A stretch of 64,000 nucleotides of DNA from Burkholderia pyrrocinia (GTDB taxonomy: Bacteria; Pseudomonadota; Gammaproteobacteria; Burkholderiales; Burkholderiaceae), in contig NZ_CP024903.1 in assembly GCF_003330765.1 (NCBI RefSeq), positions 1,674,001-1,738,000 on the forward strand, in the 5' to 3' direction. The notes beneath the pieces are model-generated. The model saw only the letters and a list, made by a program, of their open reading frames with translations. It did not search any database and was not told the DNA's origin. Positions 32,305 to 57,945 of this stretch are shown here, piece after piece (the stretch's first letter is position 1; every line of letters begins with the position of its first letter). The position numbers and the translations under genes are program-made.

Positions 32305-33720
32305 TTAGAAAGCATTGCGACCGATAAAGCCCCGCACGACCGTCAACAGGATGATCTTCATGTCGAACCAGAAGCTCCAGTTCTGCATGTAGAACAGATC
32401 GAACTTCACGCGCGCTGCCATCGCCTCGACCTTGCGCGTCTCGCCGCGATAGCCGTTTACCTGCGCCCATCCGGTGATGCCGGGCCGCACGCGGTAGCGG
32501 TACATGTAGCAGTCGATCAGTTGCCGATAGAAGTCGTCGTGCTCGATCGCATGCGGACGCGGGCCGACGACCGACATCTGCCCGAACAGCACGTTGAAGA
32601 ACTGCGGCAGCTCGTCGAGCGACGTGCGCCGCAGGAACGCGCCGACGCGCGTGATGCGCGAATCGTTGCGCGACGCCTGCCGCACGACGCCCGGCAGCGC
32701 GCGATGCACACGCATCGTCCTGAACTTCAGGATGTCGAACTCGCGGCCGTCCACGCCCTTGCGGCGCTGCCTGAACAGCACGGGCCCCGGCGACGACAGC
32801 TTGACCGCGAGCGCCAGCATCGACAGCAGCGGCAGCAACGGAATCAGCACGCCGAACGCGAACAGTCGGTCGAACGCGAACTTCGCCCACAGCTCCGGCG
32901 CGGAGCGCGGCGTGGTCGCGAGATTGATCGCCGGCATGCCGAGCACGTCGGTCGCAGAGCGATCGACAACCGCCATCTGCCGCACGTCGGGCAGCAGCCG
33001 CAGCTCGACGAATTCGTCGCGCAGCTCGCGCACGATGCGCTGGATCCGCCACTCGTGCGACATCGGCAGCGTGAGCCACACCTCGTCGATCTCGCCGCCG
33101 CGAATCATGTCGCGCAACGCGTTCCAGTCGTCGATCACCGGCACGCCGCCGATGCCGCCCGCGGCAGCCGGTGCATCGTCATCGAATACGCATGCCGCCA
33201 CGAAAGGGCCGTTCGACGCGAGCTGCATCCGCTCGATCGCCACGCGCCCGTACGCCGTTGCGCCGACGACGGCGACGCGGCGCTGCCGCGCGCGCGGGTC
33301 GTCATGCGTCAACGCGAGTGCCAGCAGCGCGGCACGGCCGAGCAGCAGCGCAGCGTCACCGGCCAGCACCGTGCGCACGATCCAGCGTGTCGTGACCGTG
33401 CCGCCGCGGTTCATGATCCACATCGTGCCGGCCACCGTCAGCACGCTCGCGCAGACGACGGCAATCATTGCCTGCGTCAGCACGTAAGCACCGCCCTGCG
33501 GCGCCACGCCGCCGCGCACGGTGCGCAGGTAGCGCGGCAGCAGCGCCACGGTCATCACGCACAGCAGCGCGATCGCGCCACGCTGCGCGTCGGACAGTTC
33601 GCGCCAGGCAAGGCCCGACGCCGCCTGCGCCGCAAGCGCCCCTCCCAGCACGAGCACGACGTCGGCCGCCGCGATCGCGGCACGCCGCATCGCATTCGTT
33701 CCACCGGACCTCGACTGCAT
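32305..33720 (-). CDS. Undecaprenyl-phosphate sugar phosphotransferase (WcaJ/PslA-type), EPS initiation
   Basis: The 471-residue inner-membrane enzyme starts polysaccharide assembly by placing a hexose-1-phosphate on undecaprenyl phosphate. The N-terminal half has four or five membrane segments and a CoA-binding-like domain (RVAVVGATAYGRVAIERM). The C-terminal bacterial sugar transferase domain contains RQRRKGVDGREFDILKFRTM, RRTSLDELPQFFNVLFGQMS and VGPRP followed by RVRPGITGWAQVNGYRG. The start follows the stop of the CRP-like gene by 2 bp, so both are one transcript, driven by the sigma-54 promoter at 34681-34698. Confidence 0.93.
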   Translation of the reverse strand: MQSRSGGTNAMRRAAIAAADVVLVLGGALAAQAASGLAWRELSDAQRGAIALLCVMTVALLPRYLRTVRGGVAPQGGAYVLTQAMIAVVCASVLTVAGTMWIMNRGGTVTTRWIVRTVLAGDAALLLGRAALLALALTHDDPRARQRRVAVVGATAYGRVAIERMQLASNGPFVAACVFDDDAPAAAGGIGGVPVIDDWNALRDMIRGGEIDEVWLTLPMSHEWRIQRIVRELRDEFVELRLLPDVRQMAVVDRSATDVLGMPAINLATTPRSAPELWAKFAFDRLFAFGVLIPLLPLLSMLALAVKLSSPGPVLFRQRRKGVDGREFDILKFRTMRVHRALPGVVRQASRNDSRITRVGAFLRRTSLDELPQFFNVLFGQMSVVGPRPHAIEHDDFYRQLIDCYMYRYRVRPGITGWAQVNGYRGETRKVEAMAARVKFDLFYMQNWSFWFDMKIILLTVVRGFIGRNAF

Positions 33721-33722
33721 CG

Positions 33723-34505
33723 TCACGCACCATGTGCCGGGAATCCGCAACGCACCTCCGGCATGCGGGGGCGAACCGGCGCCGGCCTCGCATTCCCGCG
33801 CGCGCCGAGCAACCGGCGATAGTCGGCGCGAATCAGGTCGTAGCATTCGCACGCGTGATGTTCGAGGCCGTCGCGGTCGAGCACCGTGATGCGGCCGCGG
33901 CGCTGCCGGATCAGCCCGGCTTCCTGCAGGTTGCCGGCCGCTTCCGTCACGCCTTCGCGCCGCACGCCGAGCATGTTCGCGATCGTCTGCTGCGTGACGG
34001 TCAGCTCGTCGCCGTCGATACGGTCGTGCGCCAGCAGCAGCCAGCGGCTGAGCTGCTCGCTGACCGAGTGGTGCCGGTTGCACAGCGCGCTGCGCGAGAT
34101 CTGCGCCATCGTCGCCTGGCAGTAGTTGAGCAGCAGCCGGTAAGTCGCAGGCGACCGCTCGAATTCGGCGCGCATCACGCAGCTCGGCACGCGATAAGCC
34201 ATCCCGCCGATGCGGACCTCGACCCGGTTCGACGCAGCGGTGCCACCGACCAGCGTCGCAAGCCCGACCACCCCCTCGCGGCCGACCACCGCCACCTCGA
34301 CCATCGCACCGTCCTCCATCAGGTGCTGCACCGACATCATTGCCGTCGTCGGGAAATGCAGATGGCGCATCGGCTCGCCGACCCGGTCGAGCATGCCGGC
34401 CTTGATCCGGACCAGTTCGAGATGCGGTGCGATGGTGCGGATGCTGTCCTCCGGAAGGGCATCGAGGATGGCATTCGCCGAGTAGCTCGAATGAAGATGA
34501 AGCAT
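33723..34505 (-). CDS. CRP/FNR-family transcriptional regulator, paralogue of the BerA-like protein
   Basis: The 260-residue protein has an N-terminal cyclic-nucleotide-type jelly roll (residues 15-140) and a C-terminal winged helix (TQQTIANMLGVRREGVTEAAG, then LIRQRRGRITVLDRDGLE). It resembles along its whole length the regulator encoded at 35429-36211. The classical cAMP-pocket arginine motif (RSA) is not seen, so another ligand is likely. The start MLHLHSSYSANAIL is preceded by GAGGG. It is co-transcribed with the sugar phosphotransferase, which suggests local control of polysaccharide initiation. Confidence 0.85.
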   Translation of the reverse strand: MLHLHSSYSANAILDALPEDSIRTIAPHLELVRIKAGMLDRVGEPMRHLHFPTTAMMSVQHLMEDGAMVEVAVVGREGVVGLATLVGGTAASNRVEVRIGGMAYRVPSCVMRAEFERSPATYRLLLNYCQATMAQISRSALCNRHHSVSEQLSRWLLLAHDRIDGDELTVTQQTIANMLGVRREGVTEAAGNLQEAGLIRQRRGRITVLDRDGLEHHACECYDLIRADYRRLLGARGNARPAPVRPRMPEVRCGFPAHGA

Positions 34506-34680
34506 GTCTGTATCCCTCTTATTGTCCGCGCCGCCTGCAGCCGCGTGCATGGAACTCGTTATCGCGATGCGCGCCCGGACGTTGACGGTGGTTGCGGCCC
34601 GCAACCCTGAATCCGACTGACCATCGGCTTGTCACCGCCGGATCGAGTCGGCCGTCCCGTTTCGACACGCCAGCCCGAAT

Positions 34681-35428: not shown

Positions 35429-36211
35429 GTGACTCACCAGGCCCACGACGCCGTCGCGCATGCGAACGGCATGATCGAGCTTTCCCACAGCTTCGATGCC
35501 AACCGGTTTCTCGCGGCCATCGACCGCGACGAGCTCGCCACGCTGGTCCCCCACCTTCAACTCGTCCACCTGAAATCGGGGCAAGTGCTCTGCGAACCCG
35601 GCGAAATGCTCGCCGCGGTCTACCTCCCCGTCACGACGGCGATTTCGCTGCAGTACGTGTCGTCCGGCGGCATGACGCTGGAGGTCGCGGAGATCGGTAG
35701 CGAGAGCGTGGTCTGCGACGACGTGATCGGCGGCAGCGGCCGGATGCCTTGCCGTGCGGTCGCCTGCCGCGACGGCTTCGTCTATCGGCTCGACCGGCGC
35801 GTATTCACCGCCGCGTTCGATGCGTCGCCGGTGATCCGCCATCTCGTGTTCGTCTGCGTGCGACTGCTGATGGTACAGGTATCGCAGATCACGTTCTGCA
35901 GCCGTCATCACGTGCTCAAACATCAGTTATGCAGATGGTTCCTGCTGGCGTACGACCGTACGCGCAGCATCGAGATCCAGGTGACGCACAGCATGCTGGC
36001 GCAGATGCTCGGCGTGCGGCGGGAAACGGTCACGGATGCCGCCGGCGAAATCCAGAAACTCGGCCTGATCCGGCAATACCGGAGCTCGATCGAGCTCGCC
36101 GACCTCGACGGGCTCGAAAAGATGTCGTGCGGCTGCCGCGCGATCGTGCGCGACGAGATGAAGCGCATCCTGTCGGCCGACTCGGGCGTGCCGGCCGCAT
36201 CGCGCGCCTGA
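35429..36211 (+). CDS. berA: CRP/FNR-family regulator, BerA-like c-di-GMP effector
   Basis: The 260-residue protein has the jelly-roll ligand domain (residues 20-145) and a winged helix (THSMLAQMLGVRRETVTDAAG, then LIRQYRSSIELADLDGLE). The protein type and its place, beside a carrier-protein block, a sigma-54 activator and an exopolysaccharide cluster, agree with BerA (Bcam1349) of Burkholderia cenocepacia, a c-di-GMP-binding activator of biofilm exopolysaccharide genes; the name rests on this synteny and recall, not on an alignment. The start is GTG with GAGGA upstream. It probably controls one or more of the neighbouring transcription units. Confidence 0.8.
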   Translation: MTHQAHDAVAHANGMIELSHSFDANRFLAAIDRDELATLVPHLQLVHLKSGQVLCEPGEMLAAVYLPVTTAISLQYVSSGGMTLEVAEIGSESVVCDDVIGGSGRMPCRAVACRDGFVYRLDRRVFTAAFDASPVIRHLVFVCVRLLMVQVSQITFCSRHHVLKHQLCRWFLLAYDRTRSIEIQVTHSMLAQMLGVRRETVTDAAGEIQKLGLIRQYRSSIELADLDGLEKMSCGCRAIVRDEMKRILSADSGVPAASRA

Positions 36212-36376
36212 TTGGCGTGCCCGATCAGCGCGGCGCTTCAGCACCGCCTGCATGCGGGGTCAGCTGTTTGTAGGGTGGCGAACAGAACGCCGTGTCTGCC
36301 AATGGTCTACTGATGCCGGACTGCCGGGGGGATGTCAGCGCTTGTCGCGCGTCTGCCCGAGCGGACGACACCACGC

Positions 36377-36643
36377 ATGCCGGAGCAGCACGTGAAAAAC
36401 GAAATCAGAACCATCCTCAAGCACGTCGCCCATCTCGAAGCCGCGATCGATTCGATCGGTGACGGGGACGACCTCTACGAAGCGGGCCTCTCCTCGCTCG
36501 ACACGATCCAGCTGATGCTCGCGATCGAGAAGCAGTTCAACATCGAGATTCCCGACGAGATGCTGAACCGCAACCTGTTCCGCAGCATCGACGCGCTCGC
36601 GAACACGGTCGCCACGCTTCAACGCACCGAGCATTCCGCATGA
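36377..36643 (+). CDS. Acyl/aminoacyl carrier protein
   Basis: The 88-residue protein is a four-helix carrier protein. The serine in GLSSLDTIQLM (residue about 39-40) should carry the 4'-phosphopantetheine arm, and the acidic helix II follows (LAIEKQFNIEIPDEM). An upstream ATG at 36332 would add 15 residues of arginine-rich sequence unlike carrier proteins and has no well-spaced ribosome-binding site, so MPEQHVKNEI is preferred. It overlaps the next gene by 4 bp. The context says that it is the acceptor for the amino acid:[carrier protein] ligase two genes on, rather than the fatty-acid ACP. Confidence 0.9.
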   Translation: MPEQHVKNEIRTILKHVAHLEAAIDSIGDGDDLYEAGLSSLDTIQLMLAIEKQFNIEIPDEMLNRNLFRSIDALANTVATLQRTEHSA

Positions 36644-37836
36644 GCGGGCTGCTTCCCGAACTCGCGGCCGACAGCGAATCGCATCGGCTCGACGAGGCCG
36701 CGCACGCCGTCGCGCAGATCGCCGCCCAGCACGCGGATGCGGTCGATCGCGACGCGCGCTGCCCCGTCGAGGCGATCGAGGCGATGCGCGCGCGCCGGCT
36801 GCTGGGCGCGATGGTGCCGACCCATCTCGGCGGCGCTGGCGCGTCGCTGGAAGACATCGCCTCGGCCTGTTCGATCCTCGGCCAGGCCTGCGCATCGTCG
36901 GCGATGGTGTTCGCGATGCACCAGATCCAGATCGCCTGCATCGTCGACCATGCCGCCGACCAGGGCTGGCACAAGCTGTTCCTGCAGCAGCTCGTGCGCC
37001 ACCAGTGGCTGCTCGCGTCGGCCACGTCGGAAGACGGCGTCGGCGGCAACCTGCGCGCGAGCCAGTGCGCGCTCGACACCAGCGGCGGCGAATTCCGGCT
37101 GCGCAAATCCGCGCCGACGATCTCGTACGGCGACTATGCGGACGGCATTCTTGCGACCGCGCGACGCGATGCCGACGCGCCGGCTTCCGAACAGGTGCTC
37201 GTCACGCTGCTGCGCGACGGCTATACGCTCACGCGCCGCGGCGAATGGGACACGCTCGGGATGCGCGGCACGTGCAGCAACGGTTTCGCGCTCGACGCGC
37301 AGGGCGCCGCCGTCCAGTGCCTGCCGGTGCCGTTCGCGAAGATCGCCGAAGAAACGATGGTGCCGGTTTCGCACATCCTGTGGGCCGCCGTATGGATCGG
37401 CGTGGCCGGCGACGCATTCCATCGCGCGCACCAGTTCTTCCGCGCGCAGGCACGCCAGACCGACGGGGCGCCGTCGCCCGCGTCGCGGCGCATCGCCGAA
37501 TCGCTCGCGCTGATGCAGGCGATGCAGGCCCGTGTCGACAACGTGCTGCGTCTCCATGCGAATGCGTCGGCCCGCTCGTGGTCGGCCGGCATGGCCTGGG
37601 CCGCCGAGATCAACACGCTGAAGACCTATGTGTCGACGACCGCGCTGGAAGTCGCGCAGCAGGCGATGATGATCTGCGGGATGGCCGGCTACAAGCAAGG
37701 CACGCCGTTCAGCATCGGCCGTCACCTCCGCGACCTGCACGCGGCGCCGCTGATGATCAGCAACGACCGCATTGCCGCCAACACCTCGAACCTGCTGCTC
37801 GCGCTGCGTCCTGCGACGCTGGAGAAACATACGTGA
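36640..37836 (+). CDS. Acyl-CoA-dehydrogenase-fold flavoprotein acting on a carrier-protein substrate (inferred)
   Basis: The 398-residue protein has the three parts of the acyl-CoA dehydrogenase fold: N-terminal helices (VPTHLGGAGASLEDIASACSILG at residues 66-88), a beta domain (LLASATSEDGVGGNLRAS, GEWDTLGMRGTCSNGF) and C-terminal helices. The C-terminal catalytic YEG motif of classical members is replaced by RDLHAAPLMISNDRIAANTS, which is closer to the dibenzothiophene-monooxygenase/type-2 branch. Its reaction could therefore be a desaturation, an oxidation next to nitrogen, or a hydroxylation. It overlaps both neighbours by 4 bp, which ties it to the carrier protein and the ligase. Confidence 0.85.
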   Translation: MSGLLPELAADSESHRLDEAAHAVAQIAAQHADAVDRDARCPVEAIEAMRARRLLGAMVPTHLGGAGASLEDIASACSILGQACASSAMVFAMHQIQIACIVDHAADQGWHKLFLQQLVRHQWLLASATSEDGVGGNLRASQCALDTSGGEFRLRKSAPTISYGDYADGILATARRDADAPASEQVLVTLLRDGYTLTRRGEWDTLGMRGTCSNGFALDAQGAAVQCLPVPFAKIAEETMVPVSHILWAAVWIGVAGDAFHRAHQFFRAQARQTDGAPSPASRRIAESLALMQAMQARVDNVLRLHANASARSWSAGMAWAAEINTLKTYVSTTALEVAQQAMMICGMAGYKQGTPFSIGRHLRDLHAAPLMISNDRIAANTSNLLLALRPATLEKHT

Positions 37837-38807
37837 ACGATCGCCTCGCCGTGCCCTCCACCGCCTCCACGCCCGCCGACGCACCGCTCGACCGCGCGGG
37901 CGTCAACCCGCTGCGCGATGCGCTGATCGACTCAGGCCTGCTGGTATCGACCGGCATCCAGGGCCTGTTCGGCCGCAGCGAACGGTTCGAGCGCGTCGTG
38001 CAAGCGCTCGACGCGTTCGTCACGCGCATCGGCGCCGACCAGCAGGCCGAGGTGCTGCGCTTCCCGCCGGCAATGAGCCGCACCGAGTTCGAGCGCAGCG
38101 AATACATGAAGAGCTTCCCGCAACTGGCGGGCAGCGTGCATGCATTCTGCGGCGACGAGCGCCAGCATCAGCGCCTGTTGCAGTGCCTCGATCGCGGCGA
38201 CGACTGGACCGAAAACCAGAAGCCGACCTACGTCGTGATGACACCGGCCGCGTGCTACCCTGTCTACCCCGTCGTCGCGCGCGCGGGCGCGCTGCCCGCC
38301 GACGGACGCACCGTCGACGTGTTCTCGTACTGCTTCCGTCACGAGCCGTCGCTCGATCCGACCCGCATGCAGCTGTTCCGGATGCGCGAGTATGTGCGGA
38401 TCGGCACGCCGGAGCAGATCGTCGCGTTCCGCGAGACGTGGATCGAACGCGGTACGCGAATGATCGACGCGCTGCGCCTGCCAAACGCGATCGACCTCGC
38501 GAACGACCCGTTTTTCGGGCGCGGCGGCAAGATCGTCGCGAACAGCCAGCGCGAGCAGAGCCTGAAGTTCGAGTTGCTGATCCCGATCGAGCACGACAAC
38601 CGCCAGACCGCGTGCCTGAGCTTCAACTACCACATGGACCATTTCGGCCTGCTGTGGGACATCCGCACCGCGCCGGGCGACGTTGCGCACACCGGTTGCG
38701 TCGGCTTCGGCCTCGAACGGCTCACGCTCGCGCTGTTCCGCCACCACGGCTTCGACATCGACGCATGGCCGCGCGAAGTCCGCGACGTGCTGTGGGGCAC
38801 ACCATGA
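37833..38807 (+). CDS. Class II aminoacyl-tRNA-synthetase-like amino acid:[carrier protein] ligase
   Basis: The 324-residue protein is a truncated class II synthetase core with no tRNA-binding domain. Motif 2 is FRHEPS (residues 168-173) and motif 3 is GFGLERLTLALF (291-302). C141, E186 and C289 have the spacing of the zinc ligands I recall for the Bradyrhizobium and Agrobacterium homologues of atypical seryl-tRNA synthetase, which activate glycine or alanine and load it on a carrier protein. The GTG start overlaps the previous stop (GTGA). The amino acid used here is not known; glycine or another small residue is the first guess. It acts in the cytosol with the carrier protein encoded at 36377. 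Confidence 0.9.
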   Translation: MNDRLAVPSTASTPADAPLDRAGVNPLRDALIDSGLLVSTGIQGLFGRSERFERVVQALDAFVTRIGADQQAEVLRFPPAMSRTEFERSEYMKSFPQLAGSVHAFCGDERQHQRLLQCLDRGDDWTENQKPTYVVMTPAACYPVYPVVARAGALPADGRTVDVFSYCFRHEPSLDPTRMQLFRMREYVRIGTPEQIVAFRETWIERGTRMIDALRLPNAIDLANDPFFGRGGKIVANSQREQSLKFELLIPIEHDNRQTACLSFNYHMDHFGLLWDIRTAPGDVAHTGCVGFGLERLTLALFRHHGFDIDAWPREVRDVLWGTP

Positions 38808-39859
38808 GGTTCGTTTCCCGCGACGGCGAAGACGCGTCGTTCGAGGATGTGCGCCACCGTGCGCGCCACTACCGGCCGCACCCGCTGCACAGCCAGGAGA
38901 TGGTCTGGAAACAGACCAACTGCTACGTCGACATGTGGCTCGAGGTGCTCCGGTGGTGGGGCTTCAACCCGTACGCGGCGCTGCCGTTTACGATCGCGCT
39001 CGATTTCGAGGGCGACCAGTTCACGTTCTTCAAGTTTCCGCACGACGAACTGGAGCGGCTTTACGGCATCGTCGTGCAGGAGCACTCGATCTACGAGCCG
39101 CTCGACCAGCACATCGAAACGCAGGTCGCACGCGGTCACCTGATGATCGTCGAGGTCGACGCGTGGTTCCTGCCCGACACGCGCGGCAGCAGCTATCGCA
39201 CGCAGCACACGAAGACGACGATCGGCATCGATGCGATCGACCGCTCGAAGCGCCAGATCGGCTACTTCCACAACAGCGGCTACTACGTGGCCGAAGATTT
39301 CGACTACAACGGGCTGGTCGGCGACAGCTCGCCGATGACGCTGCCGCCGTACGTCGAATGCGCGAAACGGCGCTTTGCGCCGCTCGACGAGCGCGCGCTC
39401 TGCGAAGCGTCGCTCGCCGCGCTGCAGCGCCATCTGCGGCGCCTGCCGGTCGTCGATCCGATCGCCGCATTCCGGCGGCAGTTGCAGACCGACGCGAGGA
39501 TGCTCGCCGATTCGCCGCTCGAACACTTCCACGCGTACTCGTTCAATTCGGTGCGGCAGCTCGGCGCGAATTTCGAACTGTTCGGCCACTACGCGCGCTG
39601 GCTGCAGGCCAGCGGGTGCGCCGGGCCGTTCGCCGAGATCCGCGCCGCGTGCGATCGCATCGCGGCCGAAGCGATGGTGCTGGAATTTCGGCTCGCGCGC
39701 GCCTGCGCGCGCGGCAAGGAAGAACGCGGCGATTCGACGCTCGAAGCGATCGAGACCGCGTACGCTGACCTCGTCGCCTGCGCGCGGCAGATCGGCGCGC
39801 CGCTGCGGCACATGACGCCCGCGCGCAGCGATGCGGCGCCCGTGCCGGCCATGCGGTGA
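38804..39859 (+). CDS. DUF1839-family protein, partner of the amino acid:[carrier protein] ligase
   Basis: The 351-residue soluble protein belongs to DUF1839, which as far as I know occurs next to ligases of this kind and has no settled function. It has conserved-looking aromatic and acidic stretches (KQTNCYVDMWLEVLRWWGFNP, FEGDQFTFFKFPHDEL, YRTQHTKTTIGIDAID, GYFHNSGYYVAEDFDY). The pair of early Cys-40 with later His and Asp residues (QHTKT, FHNSGYY) could form a papain-like or transferase active centre, suggesting that it takes the aminoacyl group from the carrier; this is inference. It overlaps both neighbours by 4 bp. Confidence 0.82.
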   Translation: MRFVSRDGEDASFEDVRHRARHYRPHPLHSQEMVWKQTNCYVDMWLEVLRWWGFNPYAALPFTIALDFEGDQFTFFKFPHDELERLYGIVVQEHSIYEPLDQHIETQVARGHLMIVEVDAWFLPDTRGSSYRTQHTKTTIGIDAIDRSKRQIGYFHNSGYYVAEDFDYNGLVGDSSPMTLPPYVECAKRRFAPLDERALCEASLAALQRHLRRLPVVDPIAAFRRQLQTDARMLADSPLEHFHAYSFNSVRQLGANFELFGHYARWLQASGCAGPFAEIRAACDRIAAEAMVLEFRLARACARGKEERGDSTLEAIETAYADLVACARQIGAPLRHMTPARSDAAPVPAMR

Positions 39860-42339
39860 CGCGCGCGCGTGCCCTGCCCGCGTGGTCGATGCTGGCGACG
39901 GCCGCGGGCGCCGTGCAGGAACCGCGCGACCTCCCGGCCGCCGGCGACGGCTGGATCGCGGCGCCCGTGCCCGGCACGGTCGCGCAGGTGCTTGCGCAGG
40001 CCGGCCGTCTCGACGAAGCGGCATCGCTCGACGAGCGCGACCACTGGTACCGGATCGAACTGCGCGGACGCGGGCCGCGCATACTGCGCTTTCACGGCCT
40101 CGCCACGCTCGCGCAAGCCTGGCTCGACGACACGCCGATCCTCCGCTCCGACAGCATGTTCGTCGCGCACGATGTTCCCGTGTCGCTCGACGGCACGCAC
40201 CGGCTGACCCTCTGCTTCCGTGCCCTCGCCCCGCACCTGCGCGACGCGCGCGCGCCGCGCCGTGCGCGCTGGCGCACGCGGCTCGCCGAGCCGGCCGCGC
40301 TGCGCACGATCCGCACGTCGCTGTTCGGACACATGCCCGGCTGGTTTCCGCGCTGCGTGCCGATCGGCCCGTGGCGGCCCGTCGAGGTGCTCGATCCGGC
40401 CGACGGGCCCGTGCTGGTCGATTGCGACCTGCATGCGCGCGTCGAAGGCGACACGGGCTGGCTCGACGCGGAACTGACATTCTCCGCGCCGCTGCCCGAC
40501 ACGCTCGCGGCCCGGCTGTCGTGCGGCGAACACCACGCAACGCTCGAACGCGCCGGCGCCGACCGGCTGCGCGCGAGCGTCGCGGTGCCCAACGTGCGCC
40601 GCTGGTGGCCGCATACGCACGGCGAGCCGGCACTCTACGAGATAACGCTGCACATCGGCGACGAACGGCTGCCGCTCGGCTCGACAGGCTTCCGCACGAT
40701 CGAGATCGACGCCGGCGCCGACGGCAAGGGCTTCGGGCTGTGCATCAACGGCGTGCCGGTGTTCGCGCGAGGTGCGTGCTGGAGCAGCGCCGCGCCGCTC
40801 GCACTGCACGCGGACGATGCGACCTACGGCCGCCTGCTCGGGCTCGCGCGCGACGCCGGCTTCAACATGATCCGCGTCGGCGGCACGATGACCTACGAGG
40901 CCGACGCGTTCCACGCATGGTGCGACCGGCTCGGGCTGCTGGTCTGGCAGGATTTCATGTTCGCGAACTTCGACTATGCGCTCGACGATCCCGCGTTCGC
41001 GGCCAACGTCGACCGCGAAGCCGTGCAGTTCCTCGCGCGCCACGGCGCGTCGCCGTCGCTCGCGGTACTGTGCGGCGGCAGCGAGATCGCGCAACAGGCC
41101 GCGATGTCGGGGCTCGGGCCGAAGCAGCGCTTCCTCGAACTGACCGCCGACCGGCTGGCCGGCCATGCGGCCGCGCGCCGGCCCGACGTCCCGTACGTGC
41201 CCGATTCGCCCGACGGCGGCGTGCTGCCGTTCGCGCCGCGCGAACGCGTGTCGCACTACTACGGTGTCGGCGCGTACCTGCGCCCGCCCGACGATGCGCG
41301 CCGCGCAGACGTGCGCTTCGCGAGCGAATGCCTCGCGTTCGCGAACGTGCCATGCGAGGCAACGCTCGCCGAGCTCGGCTGGCCCGGCGTGCACGAGCCG
41401 CGCTGGAAAGCGGCCGTGCCGCGCGACCCCGGCACGTCGTGGGATTTCGAAGATATCCGCGACCACTATCTGCAAACGCTGTATGACGTCGCGCCCGACC
41501 GGCTGCGGCGCGAGGATCCGGCTCGCTACTTCGAGCTGTCGCGCGCCGTGATCGCGGACCTGATGCGCGAGACGTTTTCCGAATGGCGGCGCACCGGCTC
41601 GCGCTGCGCCGGTGCACTCGTATGGCAGTTCCAGGACGTGATGCCGGGCGCCGGATGGGGCGTGATCGACGCCGCGCATCGGCCGAAATCGGCATGGTAT
41701 GCGCTGCGCCAGGTACTGCAGCCGGTGCAGGTGTTGCTCGTCGACGAAGGTTTGAACGGGCTCGACGTGCACGTGGTCAACGAGCGCCCGGCGCCGCTGT
41801 CGGCGGCGGTCGAACTGGTCGCGCTGCGCGACGGCCGCACGCCGGTCGCGCGGGCCGGCTGCCTGGTGCGGATCGCGGCGCACGACATAGTGCGGATCGG
41901 TTCGGCCGAGCTGCTCGGCCGCTTCTTCGACTGGACCTATGCGTACCGCTTCGGCCCCTGCGAACACGACACCGTCGTCGCAACGCTGCGCGCCGACGAC
42001 GGCACGCTGCTGTCGCAGGCGTTCCATTTCCCGTCCCGCACGCATCCGGCCGTGCTGGCGCGCCGCGAACTCGGGATCGAAGCGTGCGTGTCGCGCACCG
42101 GCGACACATGGCACGTCGACATCGACACGCGGCACGTCGCGCGCCACGTGCAGATCGCCGCGCCGGGGTTCATGCCGCGCGACGACTGGTTCCATCTCGC
42201 GCCCGGCACGCCGGCGCGTGTCGCGCTGGTTCCGCTGGACATTGCCGGGAAGCATCCGGCCGCCGCCGACGCGCCGACCGCCGTGGACATCCGGGCGGTA
42301 AACACCGCAAGAACGGTGCGCGCCACGCAGGCCGGTTAA
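39856..42339 (+). CDS. Family 2-type glycoside hydrolase (beta-mannosidase-like) in the carrier-protein operon
   Basis: The 827-residue protein has a jelly-roll sugar-binding domain at the N-terminus (HWYRIELRGRGPRILRFHGLA), immunoglobulin-like parts, and a TIM barrel from about residue 280 (NGVPVFARGACW, GFNMIRVGGTMTYEADAFH, LGLLVWQDFMFANFDY). The acid/base glutamate is probably E410 in CGGSEI and the nucleophile E491 in FASEC, placed as in GH2 beta-mannosidases, though the usual NE of the first is SE here. No signal peptide is visible, so it should be cytosolic. The start is GTG overlapping the previous stop. It may trim a sugar conjugate made by this operon, or be a GH2-fold glycosyl-transfer enzyme. 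Confidence 0.85.
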   Translation: MTRARALPAWSMLATAAGAVQEPRDLPAAGDGWIAAPVPGTVAQVLAQAGRLDEAASLDERDHWYRIELRGRGPRILRFHGLATLAQAWLDDTPILRSDSMFVAHDVPVSLDGTHRLTLCFRALAPHLRDARAPRRARWRTRLAEPAALRTIRTSLFGHMPGWFPRCVPIGPWRPVEVLDPADGPVLVDCDLHARVEGDTGWLDAELTFSAPLPDTLAARLSCGEHHATLERAGADRLRASVAVPNVRRWWPHTHGEPALYEITLHIGDERLPLGSTGFRTIEIDAGADGKGFGLCINGVPVFARGACWSSAAPLALHADDATYGRLLGLARDAGFNMIRVGGTMTYEADAFHAWCDRLGLLVWQDFMFANFDYALDDPAFAANVDREAVQFLARHGASPSLAVLCGGSEIAQQAAMSGLGPKQRFLELTADRLAGHAAARRPDVPYVPDSPDGGVLPFAPRERVSHYYGVGAYLRPPDDARRADVRFASECLAFANVPCEATLAELGWPGVHEPRWKAAVPRDPGTSWDFEDIRDHYLQTLYDVAPDRLRREDPARYFELSRAVIADLMRETFSEWRRTGSRCAGALVWQFQDVMPGAGWGVIDAAHRPKSAWYALRQVLQPVQVLLVDEGLNGLDVHVVNERPAPLSAAVELVALRDGRTPVARAGCLVRIAAHDIVRIGSAELLGRFFDWTYAYRFGPCEHDTVVATLRADDGTLLSQAFHFPSRTHPAVLARRELGIEACVSRTGDTWHVDIDTRHVARHVQIAAPGFMPRDDWFHLAPGTPARVALVPLDIAGKHPAAADAPTAVDIRAVNTARTVRATQAG

Positions 42340-42386: not shown

Positions 42387-43778
42387 TCAGTCGGACGAGC
42401 CCGTGCCGCGCGGCCGCTCGATCCCGTACGCTTCCATCCAGCGATACAGCGTCGCGCGCGACACGCCGAGCTCGCGCGCGGAAGCCGCGATGCGCCCGCG
42501 CGTGCGCAGCAACGCGGTTTCGATCGCCTCGCGCTCGATCGACTTGCGGATGTCGGCCACGGACGGCGACGCCGCGTCGAGACAGTATTCGAGTTCGAGG
42601 TCCTGCGCGGTGATCAGGCGCCCTTCCGTCATCACGACCGCACGGCGCACGCGGTTGATCAGTTCGCGGACATTGCCGGGCCAGTCGTGCTTGTAGAGCG
42701 CCGTGATCGCATCCGTCGAGAAGCCGCGCACGCGATGGCGCGCGTCGCCGCGGAAGCGTTCGAGCATGTGGTGCGCGAGCAGTTCGATGTCCTTGCCGCG
42801 CGCGCGCAGCGGCGGCTGGTCGATACGCATCACGCACAGACGGTGAAACAGGTCCGCGCGAAATCGCCCTTGCTCCATCGCTTCGCGCAGGTCGACGTGC
42901 GTCGCGGAGACGATCCGGACGTCGACCGGCACCGGATCGCTGCCGCCGAGGCGATGGATCGAGCGCTCCTGCAGAAAACGCAGCAGGCTGGCCTGGCTCT
43001 CGTGCGGCAGGTCGCCGATCTCGTCGAGCAGCAGCGTGCCGCCGTTCGCCGCCTCGACATAGCCGATCTTGCGCGCGTTCGCGCCGGTAAACGCGCCGCG
43101 CTCATAGCCGAACAGCTCCGATTGCAGCAGATGCGGCGGAATCGCGCCGCAGTTGACCGCGACGAACGGGCCGTTGCGCCGCTCCGAATGACGATGGATC
43201 GCGACAGCCGTCAGTTCCTTGCCGGTTCCCGTTTCGCCGAACACGAACACCGGTGCGTCGGTGCGCGCGAAGCGCCGCACCGTATCGAACAGCCGCAGCA
43301 TCGCGCTGCAGGTGCCGACGATGCCTTGCTCCTCCGATTCGAGACGTTCGCGGTCGCGCGCGAACAGGCATTCCATGCCGTACGCATGGCCGACCGTATC
43401 GGCGATCCGCTGGTGCGACGCGGGCAACGTGACATAGTCGAAGCAATAGTCGCGCAATAGCGCGCGCACGTTCGGCGAAGCGGTCTGGCCGACGTCGACG
43501 AGCGCAACCCACACGACGTCGCGCATCGACGCGCAGGTCGACGCGATGCTGCCGATCGCATCGGCGTGGCCGCCGCTCAGGTCGAGGATGCCGCAGGTGA
43601 TTTCACCGGACGTATCGCGCAGCTCGTTCGCATGCGCGACGACCGAAACCTTCCAGTCGCGTCGCGACAGTTCTTTTCGCAGCATGACGGACGGCGACTG
43701 CGTCCAGTAAATCAGCGGACGCTGCCCGTTACCGCTCCCCCTGCCGGCGCTCTTATCGCGCGTTATTGGCATATTCAT
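42387..43778 (-). CDS. berB: Sigma-54-dependent enhancer-binding activator, VpsR/BerB-like
   Basis: The 463-residue activator has an N-terminal receiver-like domain of VpsR type (residues 20-140), an AAA+ domain with Walker A GETGTGKE (181-188), the sigma-54-contacting GAFTGA loop (228-233) and Walker B LLLDEIG (249-255), and a Fis-type helix-turn-helix at the end (IAASARELGVSRATLYRWM). VpsR-like proteins bind c-di-GMP and activate biofilm polysaccharide genes; BerB of B. cenocepacia is of this type and lies in the same surroundings, which is why the symbol is given. The sigma-54 promoter at 34681-34698 is a likely target. It is convergent with the GH2 gene. Confidence 0.88.
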   Translation of the reverse strand: MNMPITRDKSAGRGSGNGQRPLIYWTQSPSVMLRKELSRRDWKVSVVAHANELRDTSGEITCGILDLSGGHADAIGSIASTCASMRDVVWVALVDVGQTASPNVRALLRDYCFDYVTLPASHQRIADTVGHAYGMECLFARDRERLESEEQGIVGTCSAMLRLFDTVRRFARTDAPVFVFGETGTGKELTAVAIHRHSERRNGPFVAVNCGAIPPHLLQSELFGYERGAFTGANARKIGYVEAANGGTLLLDEIGDLPHESQASLLRFLQERSIHRLGGSDPVPVDVRIVSATHVDLREAMEQGRFRADLFHRLCVMRIDQPPLRARGKDIELLAHHMLERFRGDARHRVRGFSTDAITALYKHDWPGNVRELINRVRRAVVMTEGRLITAQDLELEYCLDAASPSVADIRKSIEREAIETALLRTRGRIAASARELGVSRATLYRWMEAYGIERPRGTGSSD

Positions 43779-44825: not shown

Positions 44826-45410
44826 ATGGAATGGCATTGTTGTGAATTCGAACATCTGAGCGCAGTGGATCTCTATGCAATCCTGCGCGCGCGCAACGCC
44901 GTGCTGGTGGTCGAGGACGCGCACACGCATCTCGACATCGACGGCAAGGACGCGGGCGCGCTGCATGTCTATGTGAGCGTGCGCGACGGCGACGCGACGG
45001 AAGTCGCGGCCTACGCACGCATCCTGCCCGGCGACGACATCGATCCGGACGTCGTGATCGACAAGGTGCTGACGAGCGAGAGCTGCCGCGACGACGACAC
45101 GCTCGAGCAGTTGATCAGGCGCGCGCTCACCGCCGCGCAGGCCGCGTGGCCGGATGCCGCGGTGCGCACGCACGTACCCGTGCCGCGCCAGGCGTTCTAC
45201 AAGCGCTTCGGATTCCGCAAGGCCTACGGCCCGTATCTCGAACAGGGAGCGCCGTTCGTCGGCCTGGTCCGGCCGGCCGACCGCGCCGCCGGCGCGCTGC
45301 GTCACCTGCTGTCCCGGGCCGTCCCGACACCGCGGTCGCGCAACGACGACACGCGCACCGACAGCCGCGCACACAACCGGCTGCCCGCCGATACCGGAGC
45401 CATCCGATGA
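44826..45410 (+). CDS. ElaA-family GNAT N-acetyltransferase
   Basis: The 194-residue protein resembles ElaA: FEHLSAVDLYAILRARNAVLVVED near the start, HLDIDGKDAGALHVYV, and the acetyl-CoA region with PVPRQAFYKRFGFRKAYGPYLEQGAPFVGL. It has an extra basic tail of about 40 residues. The ATG has GAGGA upstream and the stop overlaps the manC start (ATGA), so it is translated with a sugar-nucleotide enzyme and probably acetylates an amino sugar or another precursor in the same pathway. ElaA itself has no settled substrate. Confidence 0.82.
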   Translation: MEWHCCEFEHLSAVDLYAILRARNAVLVVEDAHTHLDIDGKDAGALHVYVSVRDGDATEVAAYARILPGDDIDPDVVIDKVLTSESCRDDDTLEQLIRRALTAAQAAWPDAAVRTHVPVPRQAFYKRFGFRKAYGPYLEQGAPFVGLVRPADRAAGALRHLLSRAVPTPRSRNDDTRTDSRAHNRLPADTGAIR

Positions 45411-46981
45411 TCCGCACCCTTCGCCCGGTTCCCGAACCCGATCTGCCGCGCGTCCTGCCGGTGATCCTCGCCGGCGGCGCCGGCACGCGGCTGTGGCCGC
45501 TGTCGCGCGAGCAGTATCCGAAGCAGTTGATCGAGCTGGTCTCGAACGAGTCGCCGCTGTCGGCGACGGCGCGCCGACTGAACGGCATCGCGAACGCGTC
45601 GCTCGACGACACGCTGCTGCTGGTATGCGGCGAGCAACATCGCGTCATGAGCGCTGCGCAGGTGCTCGGCCGCGCGGCGCCCGCCCGCATCCTGCTCGAA
45701 CCGGCCGCGCGCAACACCGCGCCCGCGCTGACGCTTGCCGCGCTCGACGCGAGCGTGCTTGCCGACGATCCCGTGCTCGCGGTGATGCCGGCCGATCACG
45801 TGATCGCCGATGTCGGCGCGTTCCAGGATGCCATCGCGCGCGCGGCGCGCTACGCGCAGGAAGGCGCGATCGTCACGCTCGGCGTGCTGCCGCGCCGCGC
45901 GGAAACGGGCTACGGCTACATCCAGGTCGGCGAGCCGCGCGCGGGCCGCCACGGCGGTCAGGGCGGTTACTCGATCGGGCGCTTCGTCGAAAAACCCGAT
46001 GCGGCGCTCGCCGATCGCTACCTGCACTCAGGCGATTACTGGTGGAACAGCGGGATTTTCGTCACGCGCGCGTCGGTCTGGCTGAAGGCAATCAGCGCGC
46101 TCGCGCCGGCAATCCACGCGGCCTGCGAGACCGCTTGGCGCGCGGGCGTCGCCGAGGATCCGTTCTTCCGGATCGATGCGGCGGCCTTCGCCGCGTGCCC
46201 GTCGGACTCGATCGACTATGCGGTGATGGAACGGCTTGCGGAGCACGCCGAACTCGGCATCGAAGGCATCGTGGTGCCGCTCGCGGCCGGCTGGTCGGAC
46301 GTCGGCACATGGGATGCGATCTGGGAAATCATGCCGAAGGACGATCACGGCAACGTCGCGCGCGGCCCGATCGTGTTCGAGGACACGCAGGACAGTCTCG
46401 TGCGTTCGGAGGGCCGCCTCATCGCATGCGTCGGGATGAAGGACGTCGTCGTGATCGAAACGCCCGATGCGGTGCTGGTCGCGAACAAGCACGACGTGCA
46501 GCGCGTGAAGAACATCGTCGCGCGCCTGAAGACCGACCGGCGCCCGCAGGCGAGCGAGCACCGCAAGGTGCAGCGGCCGTGGGGCCATTACGATTCGATC
46601 GATCTGGGCGAGCGCTTCCAGGTGAAGCGGATCGTCGTCGAGCCCGGCAAGCTGCTGTCGCTGCAGATGCACTATCACCGCGCCGAGCACTGGATCGTCG
46701 TGCGCGGCACCGCGAAGGTGACACGCGGCAACGAGACGTTCCTGCTTTGCGAGAACGAATCGACTTACATCGCCGTCGGCGAAGTGCATCGTCTCGAGAA
46801 TCCCGGCCGGATCCCGCTCGAGATCATCGAGGTGCAGTCGGGCGACTATCTCGGCGAGGACGACATCGTCCGATTCGATGATCAGTATGGGCGCGCTGTC
46901 GATGCACGCCCGCCACAACCTGCTCCGCCCGCGTCGCAGAAATCGCACGCGCAAGCCACCGTGCCGGACGTCGCTCGATAA
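45407..46981 (+). CDS. manC: Mannose-1-phosphate guanylyltransferase / mannose-6-phosphate isomerase
   Basis: The 524-residue bifunctional enzyme makes GDP-mannose. The N-terminal nucleotidyltransferase has LAGGAGTRLWPLSREQYPKQ (residues about 20-40), FVEKPD and AGWSDVGTWDA. The C-terminal cupin is the type II isomerase with QMHYHRAEHWIVVRGTAKV and EVHRLENPG. About 35 Ala/Pro-rich residues extend the usual end. It matches PslB and BceA in length and order. It shows that the polymer contains mannose or a sugar made from GDP-mannose, such as rhamnose or fucose. Confidence 0.95.
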   Translation: MIRTLRPVPEPDLPRVLPVILAGGAGTRLWPLSREQYPKQLIELVSNESPLSATARRLNGIANASLDDTLLLVCGEQHRVMSAAQVLGRAAPARILLEPAARNTAPALTLAALDASVLADDPVLAVMPADHVIADVGAFQDAIARAARYAQEGAIVTLGVLPRRAETGYGYIQVGEPRAGRHGGQGGYSIGRFVEKPDAALADRYLHSGDYWWNSGIFVTRASVWLKAISALAPAIHAACETAWRAGVAEDPFFRIDAAAFAACPSDSIDYAVMERLAEHAELGIEGIVVPLAAGWSDVGTWDAIWEIMPKDDHGNVARGPIVFEDTQDSLVRSEGRLIACVGMKDVVVIETPDAVLVANKHDVQRVKNIVARLKTDRRPQASEHRKVQRPWGHYDSIDLGERFQVKRIVVEPGKLLSLQMHYHRAEHWIVVRGTAKVTRGNETFLLCENESTYIAVGEVHRLENPGRIPLEIIEVQSGDYLGEDDIVRFDDQYGRAVDARPPQPAPPASQKSHAQATVPDVAR

Positions 46982-49933: not shown

Positions 49934-52183
49934 TTACACCCTCTGGCGCTCCGTCGAGCGAACCGGAAAGCCGCGCGCGCGCACGCGTTTGACGACCTGT
50001 TTTTTCGATCCCGTGTATGCGTTGAAGACGTGCCCCGTAATATCCGCTCCGATGCTCTGCAAACGCGACAGCGCAGCCTCAACGTCGGAGGCGCGTGTCA
50101 AGCCGCTGCGCGAGACAAGCACGTGCGCGTCGCAATTCGCGTCGACGATGCCGAGCGCGTCATTGCTCGGCAAGAGCGGCGGCCCGTCAATGACGACGAA
50201 GTCGTAACGGTGGCGTAGCGATGCGATGAGCTTCGCGAATCCAGCGCCTTCGAGCAACTCGCCGGGTGACGTTGTGCCCGGTGAGCCAGCTGGGATGATC
50301 GACAGACGGCTACCGGCCACGCGTAGTGTCACGGCATCGGGCAACACGGAGCCATCGAGCACCTGTGTGAGACCTGGGCCGCCGGCCACCGGCGATGCCC
50401 GCAAATCCGCGTTGATCAGCAGCACGCTGGCGTTCGTTCCCGTCAGCAGATACCCGAGATTCGACGACACGAAACTGCAGCCTACGCCGGCTGTCGCCCC
50501 CGTGAACAGCAAGACCTTGCCCCCGCCGTCCTGACGACGCTCCGCGAGCGCAACCTTCAGGCTCGCACGCAATGCGCGCACCGAATCGATGCCCGCGTCG
50601 TCCGGATGCGTCGCAGCCAGCGGCAACGCTGCCGAGCGAGGCCCGCCAGGCTCGGCAGCCAATGCGGGCGACGACGCCACGATCGCGAGACACGGTCGGC
50701 CGGTCAACCTGGTCAGCGTGTCCGGCGAATGTAGTTCACGGCGGTACAGCGACAGCAAATGCACGCCCGTCAATGCAAAGAACACGCCTGCGAACAGCGC
50801 ACCGAGCACGATGATGCCGCGCTTGGGCCAGACAGGCCGAAACGGCGCGACCGCCCAGTCGACGGCTGTCACACCCGGCGCCGCGCTGGAGATAGCGATC
50901 TCGAGCTGCTGCGCGTTGGTCAGCACGCTCGTGTAAAGCTGCGTCGCTATCGTCACCTGACGCGACAGCCGCACGAATTCGCGCTGAGTCGTGGGCAATT
51001 TGGCTGCCACTGCGCTCGTATCGCGGATCTCGCGCTTCACCTGGTCGAGCTGCGACTGCACGGTCTGATACTGGAGGCTTTTTGGCAGAAAGCGCTGCCT
51101 GACGTCGTCGAGCGAGATCTGCAACTCGGTCTGATGCTCTGCGAGCGTATTCAATCGGCTGATCAGCGCGGCGCCTTGTTGATCGACGTCGATCGCGCCG
51201 GTCTGTGTCCGGTATCGGTTCAGGTCGTCTTCGGCTTTTTGCAAGTCGTGCTTCAGTGCCGGCAACCGCTGACGCAGCGAATCGAGATTGCGCCGTGCGC
51301 GATCCGTTCGAAACGCGAGGTCACGCTGCAGATATTGCTGCACGATCGCGTCGACCATCTTTTTCGCTTCCCGTGCACTGTCGGCCCGGTAGCTGAGACG
51401 GATCATCGAAGGCGATTCCAGTGTCGAGTCACGGTTCGGCACGATCGTCTTCAGATGCTTCGATACGTTTTCGTAAACGAGCGGCTCCGGCTGCTTGCGC
51501 ACCGTGAATGCAATGCCGGGACGCGCGCGCAACACGTCCACGCGCAATCGGCCGGCCGTTGATTCACCAGGGAGCCTGAATGGCACCGTTTCTCCGACCT
51601 TGCCGTGCGCGAGCGCGTCGTTGTCGTCGTCATAGAGCGTCCAGTTGCTTGCATCTTCCGCGATGATCCTGAATCGATCGCCGAGCGCATTTTTTTTCGG
51701 AATCGAGAGTTCGCCGATGTCGAGCCTCTCGCCGCCCCACGCGTAGCCGGTCAGCCCGAGCGGCGCTGGCGCGAGCGCGTCTTCCGAATCGAAGCGCGAG
51801 GCAAGAAGCGGACCGATCAGCGGAAACCGGCTTGCGTTGCGGATATCGAGATCCGCACCGGCAGCGTCGATCGCGTTGTCGATCACCGCGCGCGAAATCA
51901 GCATCTCGCTTTCGTCGGACGCGGACGGTGACGCCGCGATCGTTCCGGAAACGTCCGAGAGCGAACTGATCGACGAGCCCGGCTTGGTCTGGACGCGTAG
52001 AAGCGCTTCGGCCCGATACTGCGGTGTGGCCAGCAGCGCATACAGCACGCCCGTCGCAAGCGTCGCACCGATCGTTGCAAAGAACAGGCGACGATGTTGT
52101 GCGACGGCATGCCAGAGCTGCTTCATCCCGGATTCGTCCGGTATCCGCTGCGGGTATTGGATGTTTCGTGCGTTGAATTTCAT
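49934..52183 (-). CDS. Wzc-like polysaccharide co-polymerase with degenerate tyrosine-kinase ATP site
   Basis: The 749-residue inner-membrane protein controls chain length in Wzx/Wzy systems. It has a first membrane helix (about residues 32-50), a large periplasmic coiled domain with Wzz features, a second helix (about 455-475) and a cytosolic BY-kinase-like domain. Walker A reads GATAGVGCSF, with cysteine 569 where the phosphate-binding lysine belongs, and the Walker A' reads LLINADLR, with asparagine 591 for the first aspartate; Walker B (VVIDGPP) is kept. The C-terminal tail has no tyrosine cluster. It is probably a PslE-like co-polymerase without kinase activity. It ends the minus-strand operon. 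Confidence 0.9.
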   Translation of the reverse strand: MKFNARNIQYPQRIPDESGMKQLWHAVAQHRRLFFATIGATLATGVLYALLATPQYRAEALLRVQTKPGSSISSLSDVSGTIAASPSASDESEMLISRAVIDNAIDAAGADLDIRNASRFPLIGPLLASRFDSEDALAPAPLGLTGYAWGGERLDIGELSIPKKNALGDRFRIIAEDASNWTLYDDDNDALAHGKVGETVPFRLPGESTAGRLRVDVLRARPGIAFTVRKQPEPLVYENVSKHLKTIVPNRDSTLESPSMIRLSYRADSAREAKKMVDAIVQQYLQRDLAFRTDRARRNLDSLRQRLPALKHDLQKAEDDLNRYRTQTGAIDVDQQGAALISRLNTLAEHQTELQISLDDVRQRFLPKSLQYQTVQSQLDQVKREIRDTSAVAAKLPTTQREFVRLSRQVTIATQLYTSVLTNAQQLEIAISSAAPGVTAVDWAVAPFRPVWPKRGIIVLGALFAGVFFALTGVHLLSLYRRELHSPDTLTRLTGRPCLAIVASSPALAAEPGGPRSAALPLAATHPDDAGIDSVRALRASLKVALAERRQDGGGKVLLFTGATAGVGCSFVSSNLGYLLTGTNASVLLINADLRASPVAGGPGLTQVLDGSVLPDAVTLRVAGSRLSIIPAGSPGTTSPGELLEGAGFAKLIASLRHRYDFVVIDGPPLLPSNDALGIVDANCDAHVLVSRSGLTRASDVEAALSRLQSIGADITGHVFNAYTGSKKQVVKRVRARGFPVRSTERQRV

Positions 52184-56390: not shown

Positions 56391-56428
56391 CGTGCTTTCT
56401 GGGCTGAGAGTGAACAGTGCGCCGACTG

Positions 56429-57619: not shown

Positions 57620-57945
57620 CACGACGGACCTATTTGGCGCGTCGCCTGCGGAGCGTAGCGTTTGGTCATTTTTCGGCATCCACGGCGATTTCGTTGCATC
57701 AACATTCCTGAGGGGCCTCATGGCGCCGACGCCGTCGAAAACGGGCGACGCAAGCGATAGACACCGCCACGATAATGTGTCGAAAACCAGGGATCTGTTC
57801 GCGCGGTTACTTTCGGACGGTTTCAAACAGGTTGCCGGCGCACCAGCGCGTGATCCGTCCCGTTCAGCGGAATCCTGCCAGTCGTCCGGCCCTCTCCGAC
57901 ACGTCGGCCCGCCGCGTTTGACCTGGTGAGGCGCTTGCCCGAATG
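57620..57945. other. Intergenic region between the double hydrolase and glycosyltransferase genes
   Basis: These 326 bases contain no gene with a supportable start. They may carry an internal promoter for the glycosyltransferase-wzx-wzy part; no clear elements were found. Confidence 0.45.

Follow-up and report, generated by a model that had tools for sequence, protein, structure and literature searches.

Amino acid:[carrier protein] ligases such as Bll0957 and Atu2573, reportedly the subject of studies by Mocibob in 2010 and 2013, include the closest described relatives of one enzyme treated here. According to the available part of a 2022 review (PMC9437257), it was unknown what biological role these ligases play by aminoacylating carrier proteins. 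We analyzed a cassette of five genes, one of which encodes such a ligase, in a 64,000-nucleotide stretch of Burkholderia pyrrocinia DNA (contig NZ_CP024903.1, positions 1,674,001 to 1,738,000), referred to below as the window, whose positions are used throughout. The locus is the bep/bec exopolysaccharide cluster. In this cluster, according to the accessible part of PMC9684580, BerB and RpoN together activate berA, whose product in turn activates bep. Our preferred reading, to which we assign a probability of roughly one half, is that the five genes form a self-contained aminoacyl-transfer module acting on a sugar of a polysaccharide pathway.

The five cassette proteins

The genes span 36392-42339 on the forward strand, with every reading frame open from end to end, in the order carrier protein (CP), acyl-CoA-dehydrogenase-fold flavoprotein (ACAD), ligase, DUF1839 protein, and GH2 glycosidase. 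A first-pass annotation of this DNA had described four successive 4-bp overlaps, and these are exact (ATGA at 36640, GTGA at 37833, ATGA at 38804, GTGA at 39856); family scans likewise agree with all five families it named, GH2 included. The CP start it gave, ATG 36377, is ruled out by conservation. Because that site reads ACG in 11 aligned Burkholderia relatives, we reassigned the start to GTG 36392, which lies behind CCGGAG and is common to the 11.

The CP so defined (36392..36643, 83 residues, PF00550) scores 145.6 bits against NF005480, where the cut-off is 72, and carries the motif GLSSLD, with Ser35 as the putative phosphopantetheine site. The ligase (37833..38807, 324 residues) is a class II aminoacyl-tRNA synthetase (aaRS) catalytic core without the tRNA-binding domain. 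It scores 557 bits against NF005479, above the curated cut-off of 357, and its residues 29-321 align to the solved ligase Bll0957 (PDB 4h2w, 1.8e-93), retaining Cys-Glu-Cys positions that we take to be zinc ligands. Both results agree with the ligase-CP identity proposed in the first pass. To judge from this homology, the ligase almost certainly loads the neighboring CP, presumably with glycine or alanine, a choice we assume from homology.

Bll0957 itself was considered as a direct ortholog and rejected, as Bll0957-type ligases are a separate group: they are 59-72% identical to Bll0957, and full-length cassette ligases are 51-57% identical to it. Open reading frame calling in ten Bll0957-type loci recovered the ACAD in nine, the CP in eight and the ligase itself in seven, and found DUF1839 in none of the ten. 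These loci couple the ligase with genes that, judged by eye, resemble ANL ligases, SDR and TPP enzymes. A homolog in Priestia is also accompanied by an ACAD and a CP (ACAD 40%, ligase 41%, CP 37% identical). Since the CP-ACAD-ligase trio recurs in both settings, it looks like the old core of the module.

The Priestia plasmid cluster (L131:8148-16695) comprises acpS, ACP, ACAD, amino acid:CP ligase, transporter, ATP-grasp, hydrolase, alanine permease and alanine racemase genes, and looks like an alanine-antimetabolite locus. Such settings bear on the main rival to our reading, that the module makes a small diffusible metabolite or signal derived from an amino acid, such as an amide of an oxidized glycine or alanine unit, and is merely co-regulated with the polysaccharide in Burkholderia. 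The company the trio keeps in Priestia, with alanine permease and racemase, and the ANL-, SDR- and TPP-like neighbors of the Bll0957-type loci are what this explanation would lead one to expect. It also has a precedent in Vibrio, where activated alanine feeds the autoinducer DPO, as stated in the available part of PMC12930378. However, the cassette includes no exporter, and its GH2 enzyme and hydrolase partner point to glycans; on balance we regard a diffusible product as unlikely.

The flavoprotein (36640..37836, 398 residues) matches PF02771 at 41.7 bits and PF00441 at 38.5 bits. Its best PDB match is the nitrososynthase DnmZ (2.9e-13), followed by dehydrogenases and monooxygenases. Across 40 aligned sequences H94, H245 and N375-D376-R377 are invariant, and inspection by eye, counting from the RD motif, found no catalytic Glu in any of the 40 at the YEGT or isovaleryl-type position that serves as the acyl-CoA dehydrogenase reference; the invariant NDR and H245 stand in place of the usual residue. 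If the substrate is glycyl-CP, which has no beta carbon, alpha,beta-dehydrogenation is impossible, leaving imine formation or N-oxidation.

The DUF1839 protein (38804..39859) belongs to PF08893 (423 bits, cut-off 22.5) and has a papain-like fold, placed in the same structural group as CcbD, CtaG and AziU3 by comparison with a list of folds that left out some families, for instance BtrH. Cys40, the predicted nucleophile, is present in 104 of 104 sequences and sits at the N end of the first core helix (residues 40-51). H135, H156, E117 and D119 are conserved as well and are candidates for the His and acidic members of the triad; a C-(T/S)-H triad is modeled in PMC10318531. A profile of the 104 sequences found no solved relative among PDB sequences, its two matches at E<=10 (best 0.65) both being unrelated designs. 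By fold, although not by detectable sequence, DUF1839 is very probably a CP-dependent acyltransferase, and the fold fits aminoacyl transfer to a sugar. AziU3 and CtaG, its structural neighbors, belong to natural-product pathways, which suits the diffusible-metabolite explanation too.

The fifth protein (39856..42339) is a beta-mannosidase-like glycosidase with a GH2 N2 domain (PF22666) and a match to PDB 5n6u at 6.3e-42. In an alignment of 23 sequences the acid/base E410 and the nucleophile E491 are invariant and align with the BtMan2A glutamates, whose catalytic roles we assume to apply here. The residue before the acid/base is Asn in BtMan2A and Ser409 in all 23, which probably makes for unusual sugar recognition. 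Inspection by eye shows no signal peptide, and the enzyme would therefore perform a cytosolic step.

A sixth partner, outside the run of overlaps, is a tandem alpha/beta hydrolase with a hydr2_PEP-like and a hydr1_PEP-like half (57946..59733, reverse strand, assigned by homology), 51% identical to the gene that follows GH2 in locus L020. Its scores against the models for XrtA hydrolases 1 and 2 (TIGR03100/03101), 89 and 73 bits, fall below the cut-offs of 168 and 203. In Azospirillum the hydrolase gene overlaps GH2 by 4 bp. In one locus (L107:14372-17698) a single protein combines a Wzx-type flippase with the tandem hydrolase, and proteins that cluster with this fusion are encoded in L112 (2456-5767) and L145.

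Gene order and polysaccharide neighbors across genomes

Of the Burkholderiaceae genomes, 85 of 200 encode DUF1839, as do 16 of 398 Pseudomonadota genomes and 5 of 385 from the class of G242, with 29/151 and 31/149 in two families of that class; 59 plasmid records have a match. Gene order was compared in 143 loci: a main set of 80, the best of at least 571 relatives; 50 added loci, chosen for long surrounding sequence and called alphaproteobacterial because they group with identified alphaproteobacterial ones on the tree; seven plasmid loci, chosen from the 59 records; and six added Burkholderiaceae loci, chosen partly for oddness. The order CP-ACAD-ligase-DUF1839-GH2 is kept in 129 of the 143 (70/80, 49/50, 7/7 and 3/6, respectively), where "kept" means neighbors among the families searched, so that unlabeled genes may lie between them, as in the space of roughly 1.2 kb that precedes GH2 in L033. 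Such recurrence is not chance, and the five genes stand together, not apart, in most of the loci compared. The tandem hydrolase was found within the stretch examined in 21/80, 33/50, 3/7 and 5/6 loci of the same four sets.

The ten main-set exceptions are contig ends (L011, L013, L034, L062), eroded-looking loci (L029, L030) and partial ones (L036, L070, L076, L081). Elsewhere, no GH2 was seen in L168, neither ligase nor GH2 in L117 and L118, and L122 is rearranged with two DUF1839 genes. A second ligase that might rescue ligase-less loci was absent from six of seven genomes, that of L081 not being among the seven, and the single match (G036) is below cut-off; no ANL-type replacement was present among the proteins scanned in L117. 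L118 (288-2489) encodes an LRR- and NEL-domain protein a few kb from its ligase-less DUF1839 gene.

A place beside berA and berB, whose conservation the first-pass annotation had proposed to check, does not extend to most of these loci: only 20 of the 80 in the main set, 19 from Burkholderia and one from Paraburkholderia (L024), have a BerB-like gene nearby, as do the Burkholderiaceae loci L117, L118 and L121. Its proposed tie to polysaccharide synthesis fares better, in that the cassette recurs with assembly genes; many alphaproteobacterial and some Paraburkholderia cassettes have no such genes nearby. Using initiating transferase, export protein, Wzc, Wzy and Wzx queries, we found that 63 of the 71 betaproteobacterial loci and 13 of the 48 alphaproteobacterial ones have polysaccharide-assembly genes nearby, compared with 0/7 Burkholderiaceae and 0/33 alphaproteobacterial control loci, for which round coordinates were set by hand in three and 11 genomes, respectively. 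The queries were taken from case-set loci, and the source loci (L041, L057, L058, L107, L113) were removed from the compared counts while close kin remain. Fisher p values are 2.4e-6 (beta) and 5.6e-4 (alpha), and overstate independence because the loci are related. Some genes escape these queries. De novo clustering brought up a Wzc/GumC-like group in 13 case loci, most of them alphaproteobacterial, and in Shinella L129, counted as having none, genes for GumC, an O-antigen ligase and a glycosyltransferase lie 6-12 kb upstream.

On a tree of 136 DUF1839 proteins, thinned for Burkholderia to seven main-set loci and the window, the polysaccharide label changes at least 21 times, 15 of them forced by well-supported branches, compared with 43 in shuffles. 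The module therefore appears to have entered or left polysaccharide loci many times, and the repeated gain of polysaccharide neighbors speaks against the diffusible-metabolite explanation. It also bears on whether a metabolic module, for example one for amino-acid oxidation, merely hitch-hikes in accessory clusters, its polysaccharide association being a genomic-island effect. The patchy distribution and the 59 plasmid records are compatible with that view; the flippase-hydrolase fusion, the recurrence of the same partners in separate lineages, and the biofilm phenotype seen when becG or other bec genes are mutated, as far as the available published text describes it, are not easily accommodated, and we consider hitch-hiking improbable.

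A shorter arrangement occurs in Tsukamurella (L132:3165-14900), where ligase, CP, a phosphopantetheinyl transferase and the tandem hydrolase lie in a Bac_transf/Wzx/glycosyltransferase cluster from which ACAD, DUF1839 and GH2 are absent. Homology of this hydrolase is supported by BLAST (to 1.3e-17) and by profile (1.6e-38 against three sequences). Beside the cluster is a 472-residue protein without a Pfam match.

Several further associations were seen. The R. gallicum plasmid locus (L128:12297-19490) has nifHDKENX and fdxB upstream of the cassette and an ACC-deaminase-like gene after it, and its CP adjoins a gene annotated as an exopolysaccharide production repressor. Cupriavidus-type loci (L119, L120, L034, L069, L079) carry an additional, solo DUF1839 beside ManC/CRP within the same polysaccharide locus, and these solo proteins form a clade of their own on the tree. 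A secreted protein, named cellulase-like by eye, is encoded near the cassette in six alphaproteobacterial loci (L114, L115, L136, L139, L142 and L145).

The Burkholderia locus and the Bep polymer

In the window, the cassette is between a BerA-like CRP/FNR regulator (35429..36211, forward strand; PF13545, PF00027) and a BerB-like VpsR and sigma-54 activator (42387..43778, reverse; PF20161, PF00158), as first annotated. Orthology of both rests on domains and on synteny with B. cenocepacia L008, to which they are 97% and 98% identical. The cassette is not at the head of the exopolysaccharide locus, where it had been placed, but inside it. A Bac_transf-type initiating sugar transferase homolog (32305..33738, reverse; 46% identical to the PF02397 protein L041:15033-16439) lies on its other side.

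Beyond BerB, the order is as follows, extending to 61352. A GNAT/COG2153-type acyltransferase, a recurrent neighbor (44826..45410, forward; resembling the GNAT-domain protein L042:6345-6896 and itself without a Pfam match), precedes a GDP-mannose enzyme that we presume, from synteny, to be ManC (45404..46981, forward; 93% identical to a B. cenocepacia gene). BCAM1340 is identified as ManC in PMC3584217. Glycosyltransferases are followed by a Wzc-type chain-length kinase (49934..52183, reverse; tblastn to L058, whose protein has Wzz/WZC_N domains), a GH5-like gene (52227..53753), a Wzx-type flippase (55137..56441, reverse; PF01943, 6.5e-38), a GT4 glycosyltransferase (56429..57826, reverse; PF00534), the tandem hydrolase, and a polysaccharide export protein (60165..61352, reverse; PF02563, SLBB).

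Between berA and the cassette is a non-coding block (about 36266..36340, forward strand) that is nearly invariant in an alignment of 12 Burkholderia sequences. Its core, TTGTAGGGTGGCGAACAGA, has no second genomic copy with fewer than three mismatches. Scans with sigma-54 and sigma-70 consensus sequences gave matches no better than shuffles, and no promoter is assigned; the block is perhaps the cassette's own promoter or control site. A second CRP-type regulator (33723-34604) is divergent from berA and adjoins it in 21 of 21 Burkholderia-type loci (L002-L022).

According to the available part of PMC5507470, 14 bec genes match BCAM1334-BCAM1350, with becL the homolog of BCAM1342, the sigma-54 regulator, and becD that of BCAM1349. 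By position, as in L020 and L121, becF-K would correspond to CP, ACAD, ligase, DUF1839, GH2 and tandem hydrolase. The terms "carrier protein" and DUF1839 do not occur in the text of PMC5507470; text searches of the bec/bep papers so searched for carrier protein, DUF1839 and Bcam1342-1348 found nothing, and a literature search of open-licence papers returned no match for BCAM1344, BCAM1345 or BCAM1347, a single paper for DUF1839, and for exosortase hydrolases one unrelated paper. The first-pass annotation held that a link between tethered amino acids and polysaccharide or biofilm control would be a new system. The biofilm link is only partly new, because becG, named there as an acyl-CoA dehydrogenase, is already among the reduced-biofilm mutants of another Burkholderia in the accessible text of the same paper.

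Several observations count against our preferred reading. In the available text, the primary pellicle screen missed only becF, becM and becO, of which becM and becO were absent from the library and becF was present (PMC5507470). That a biofilm screen did not recover becF, by position the CP gene, argues against the CP being essential, unless its insertion was silent or another CP serves. The Bep repeat, as given in the accessible part of PMC7084887, is Gal-Glc-Gal-Man without substituents, hence with no amino-acid group, and its all-alpha chain offers no obvious bond for a beta-mannosidase-like enzyme to cleave. In the text available, Bep extraction used 0.3 M NaOH and the measurements were made in 0.3 M NaOD, conditions under which ester substituents would be lost and amides should survive. 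Among the loci surveyed, L070 and L076 keep DUF1839 with neither ligase nor detected CP, and 35 of 48 alphaproteobacterial and 8 of 71 betaproteobacterial loci have no queried polysaccharide gene within the stretch. Cassettes on two Azospirillum plasmids, in Mycetohabitans, on a Caballeronia plasmid and in R. leguminosarum have no annotated polysaccharide-assembly genes, as a diffusible product would predict. Finally, no sequence-level homology was found between DUF1839 and CcbD or CtaG.

A substituent-free Bep chain would also be accounted for if the aminoacyl group went to a lipid or a lipid A-like glycolipid instead of an exopolysaccharide, by functional analogy with AlmE-AlmF-AlmG as outlined in the available part of PMC12930378. 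This explanation seems very improbable, since the five proteins include no AlmG/LpxL- or MBOAT-type family and the frequent neighbors are Wzx, Wzc and export genes.

Proposed mechanism and comparison with known systems

Under our preferred reading of an aminoacyl-transfer module acting on a sugar, the aaRS-derived ligase would adenylate a small amino acid of the glycine/alanine class and load it on the CP phosphopantetheine, as homology with tested ligases suggests. The ACAD-fold flavoprotein may then oxidize the tethered group, in the case of glycine at the C-N bond or the nitrogen, there being no beta carbon. The CcbD-like DUF1839 protein would take the group on Cys40 and pass it to a sugar amine or hydroxyl, a step suggested by fold, conserved Cys and gene pairing. 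That the acceptor is a polysaccharide-pathway sugar is an evenly balanced proposition; in Wzx-type loci it could be the repeat unit or a lipid- or nucleotide-linked precursor, with the cytosolic GH2 and tandem hydrolase trimming or proofreading the product. In Burkholderia, the module is probably controlled by cyclic di-GMP (c-di-GMP), given its position between berA and berB.

More tentatively, the cassette may be a third, so far unrecognized route beside Dlt and Alm, in which an aaRS-derived ligase, a CP and DUF1839 decorate surface polysaccharide precursors with an oxidized amino acid across Beta- and Alphaproteobacteria, with a shorter form in Actinobacteria; in Burkholderia the decoration would be c-di-GMP-switched, and alkali-labile or substoichiometric, and so missed in the Bep structure. 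If so, glycan transfer would answer the question of why these ligases aminoacylate CPs, and reactions could be assigned to DUF1839 and to an atypical ACAD branch. It would also name a chemical decoration through which the insolubility or cohesion of a biofilm polysaccharide could be controlled. Five predicted cytosolic proteins, orphan enzymes among them, would gain a testable job.

Compared with the papers on becA-R/bep (PMC5507470, PMC3584217, PMC9684580), the locus is the same, but there the cassette genes are treated as cluster members. XrtA (exosortase A) polysaccharide loci share the two hydrolase types that are joined in the sixth partner, although all cassette hydrolase matches are below the curated cut-offs. 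Bll0957 and Atu2573 share family, fold and Cys-Glu-Cys with the cassette ligase, and have a CP and an ACAD-like gene in the locus, but belong to the separate ligase group whose ten loci lack DUF1839. CtaG (closthioamide) and AziU3 (azinomycin), of the DUF1839 structural group, act on CP-linked substrates with non-sugar acceptors. In lincosamide synthesis, the papain-like CcbD/LmbD transfers a CP-tethered amino acid (CP domain CcbZ/LmbN) to an amino sugar, as we propose for the papain-like DUF1839; sequence similarity is undetectable, the product is an antibiotic and not a polymer, and activation is by a nonribosomal peptide synthetase-type adenylation protein instead of an aaRS-like ligase. 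Dlt and AlmEFG, as described in the available part of PMC12930378, likewise place an amino acid on a CP and then on a cell-surface glycopolymer or glycolipid. The cassette would differ from them in using a ligase and a transferase of other families, since family scans of its five proteins find no ANL ligase and no MBOAT or LpxL-type membrane acyltransferase.

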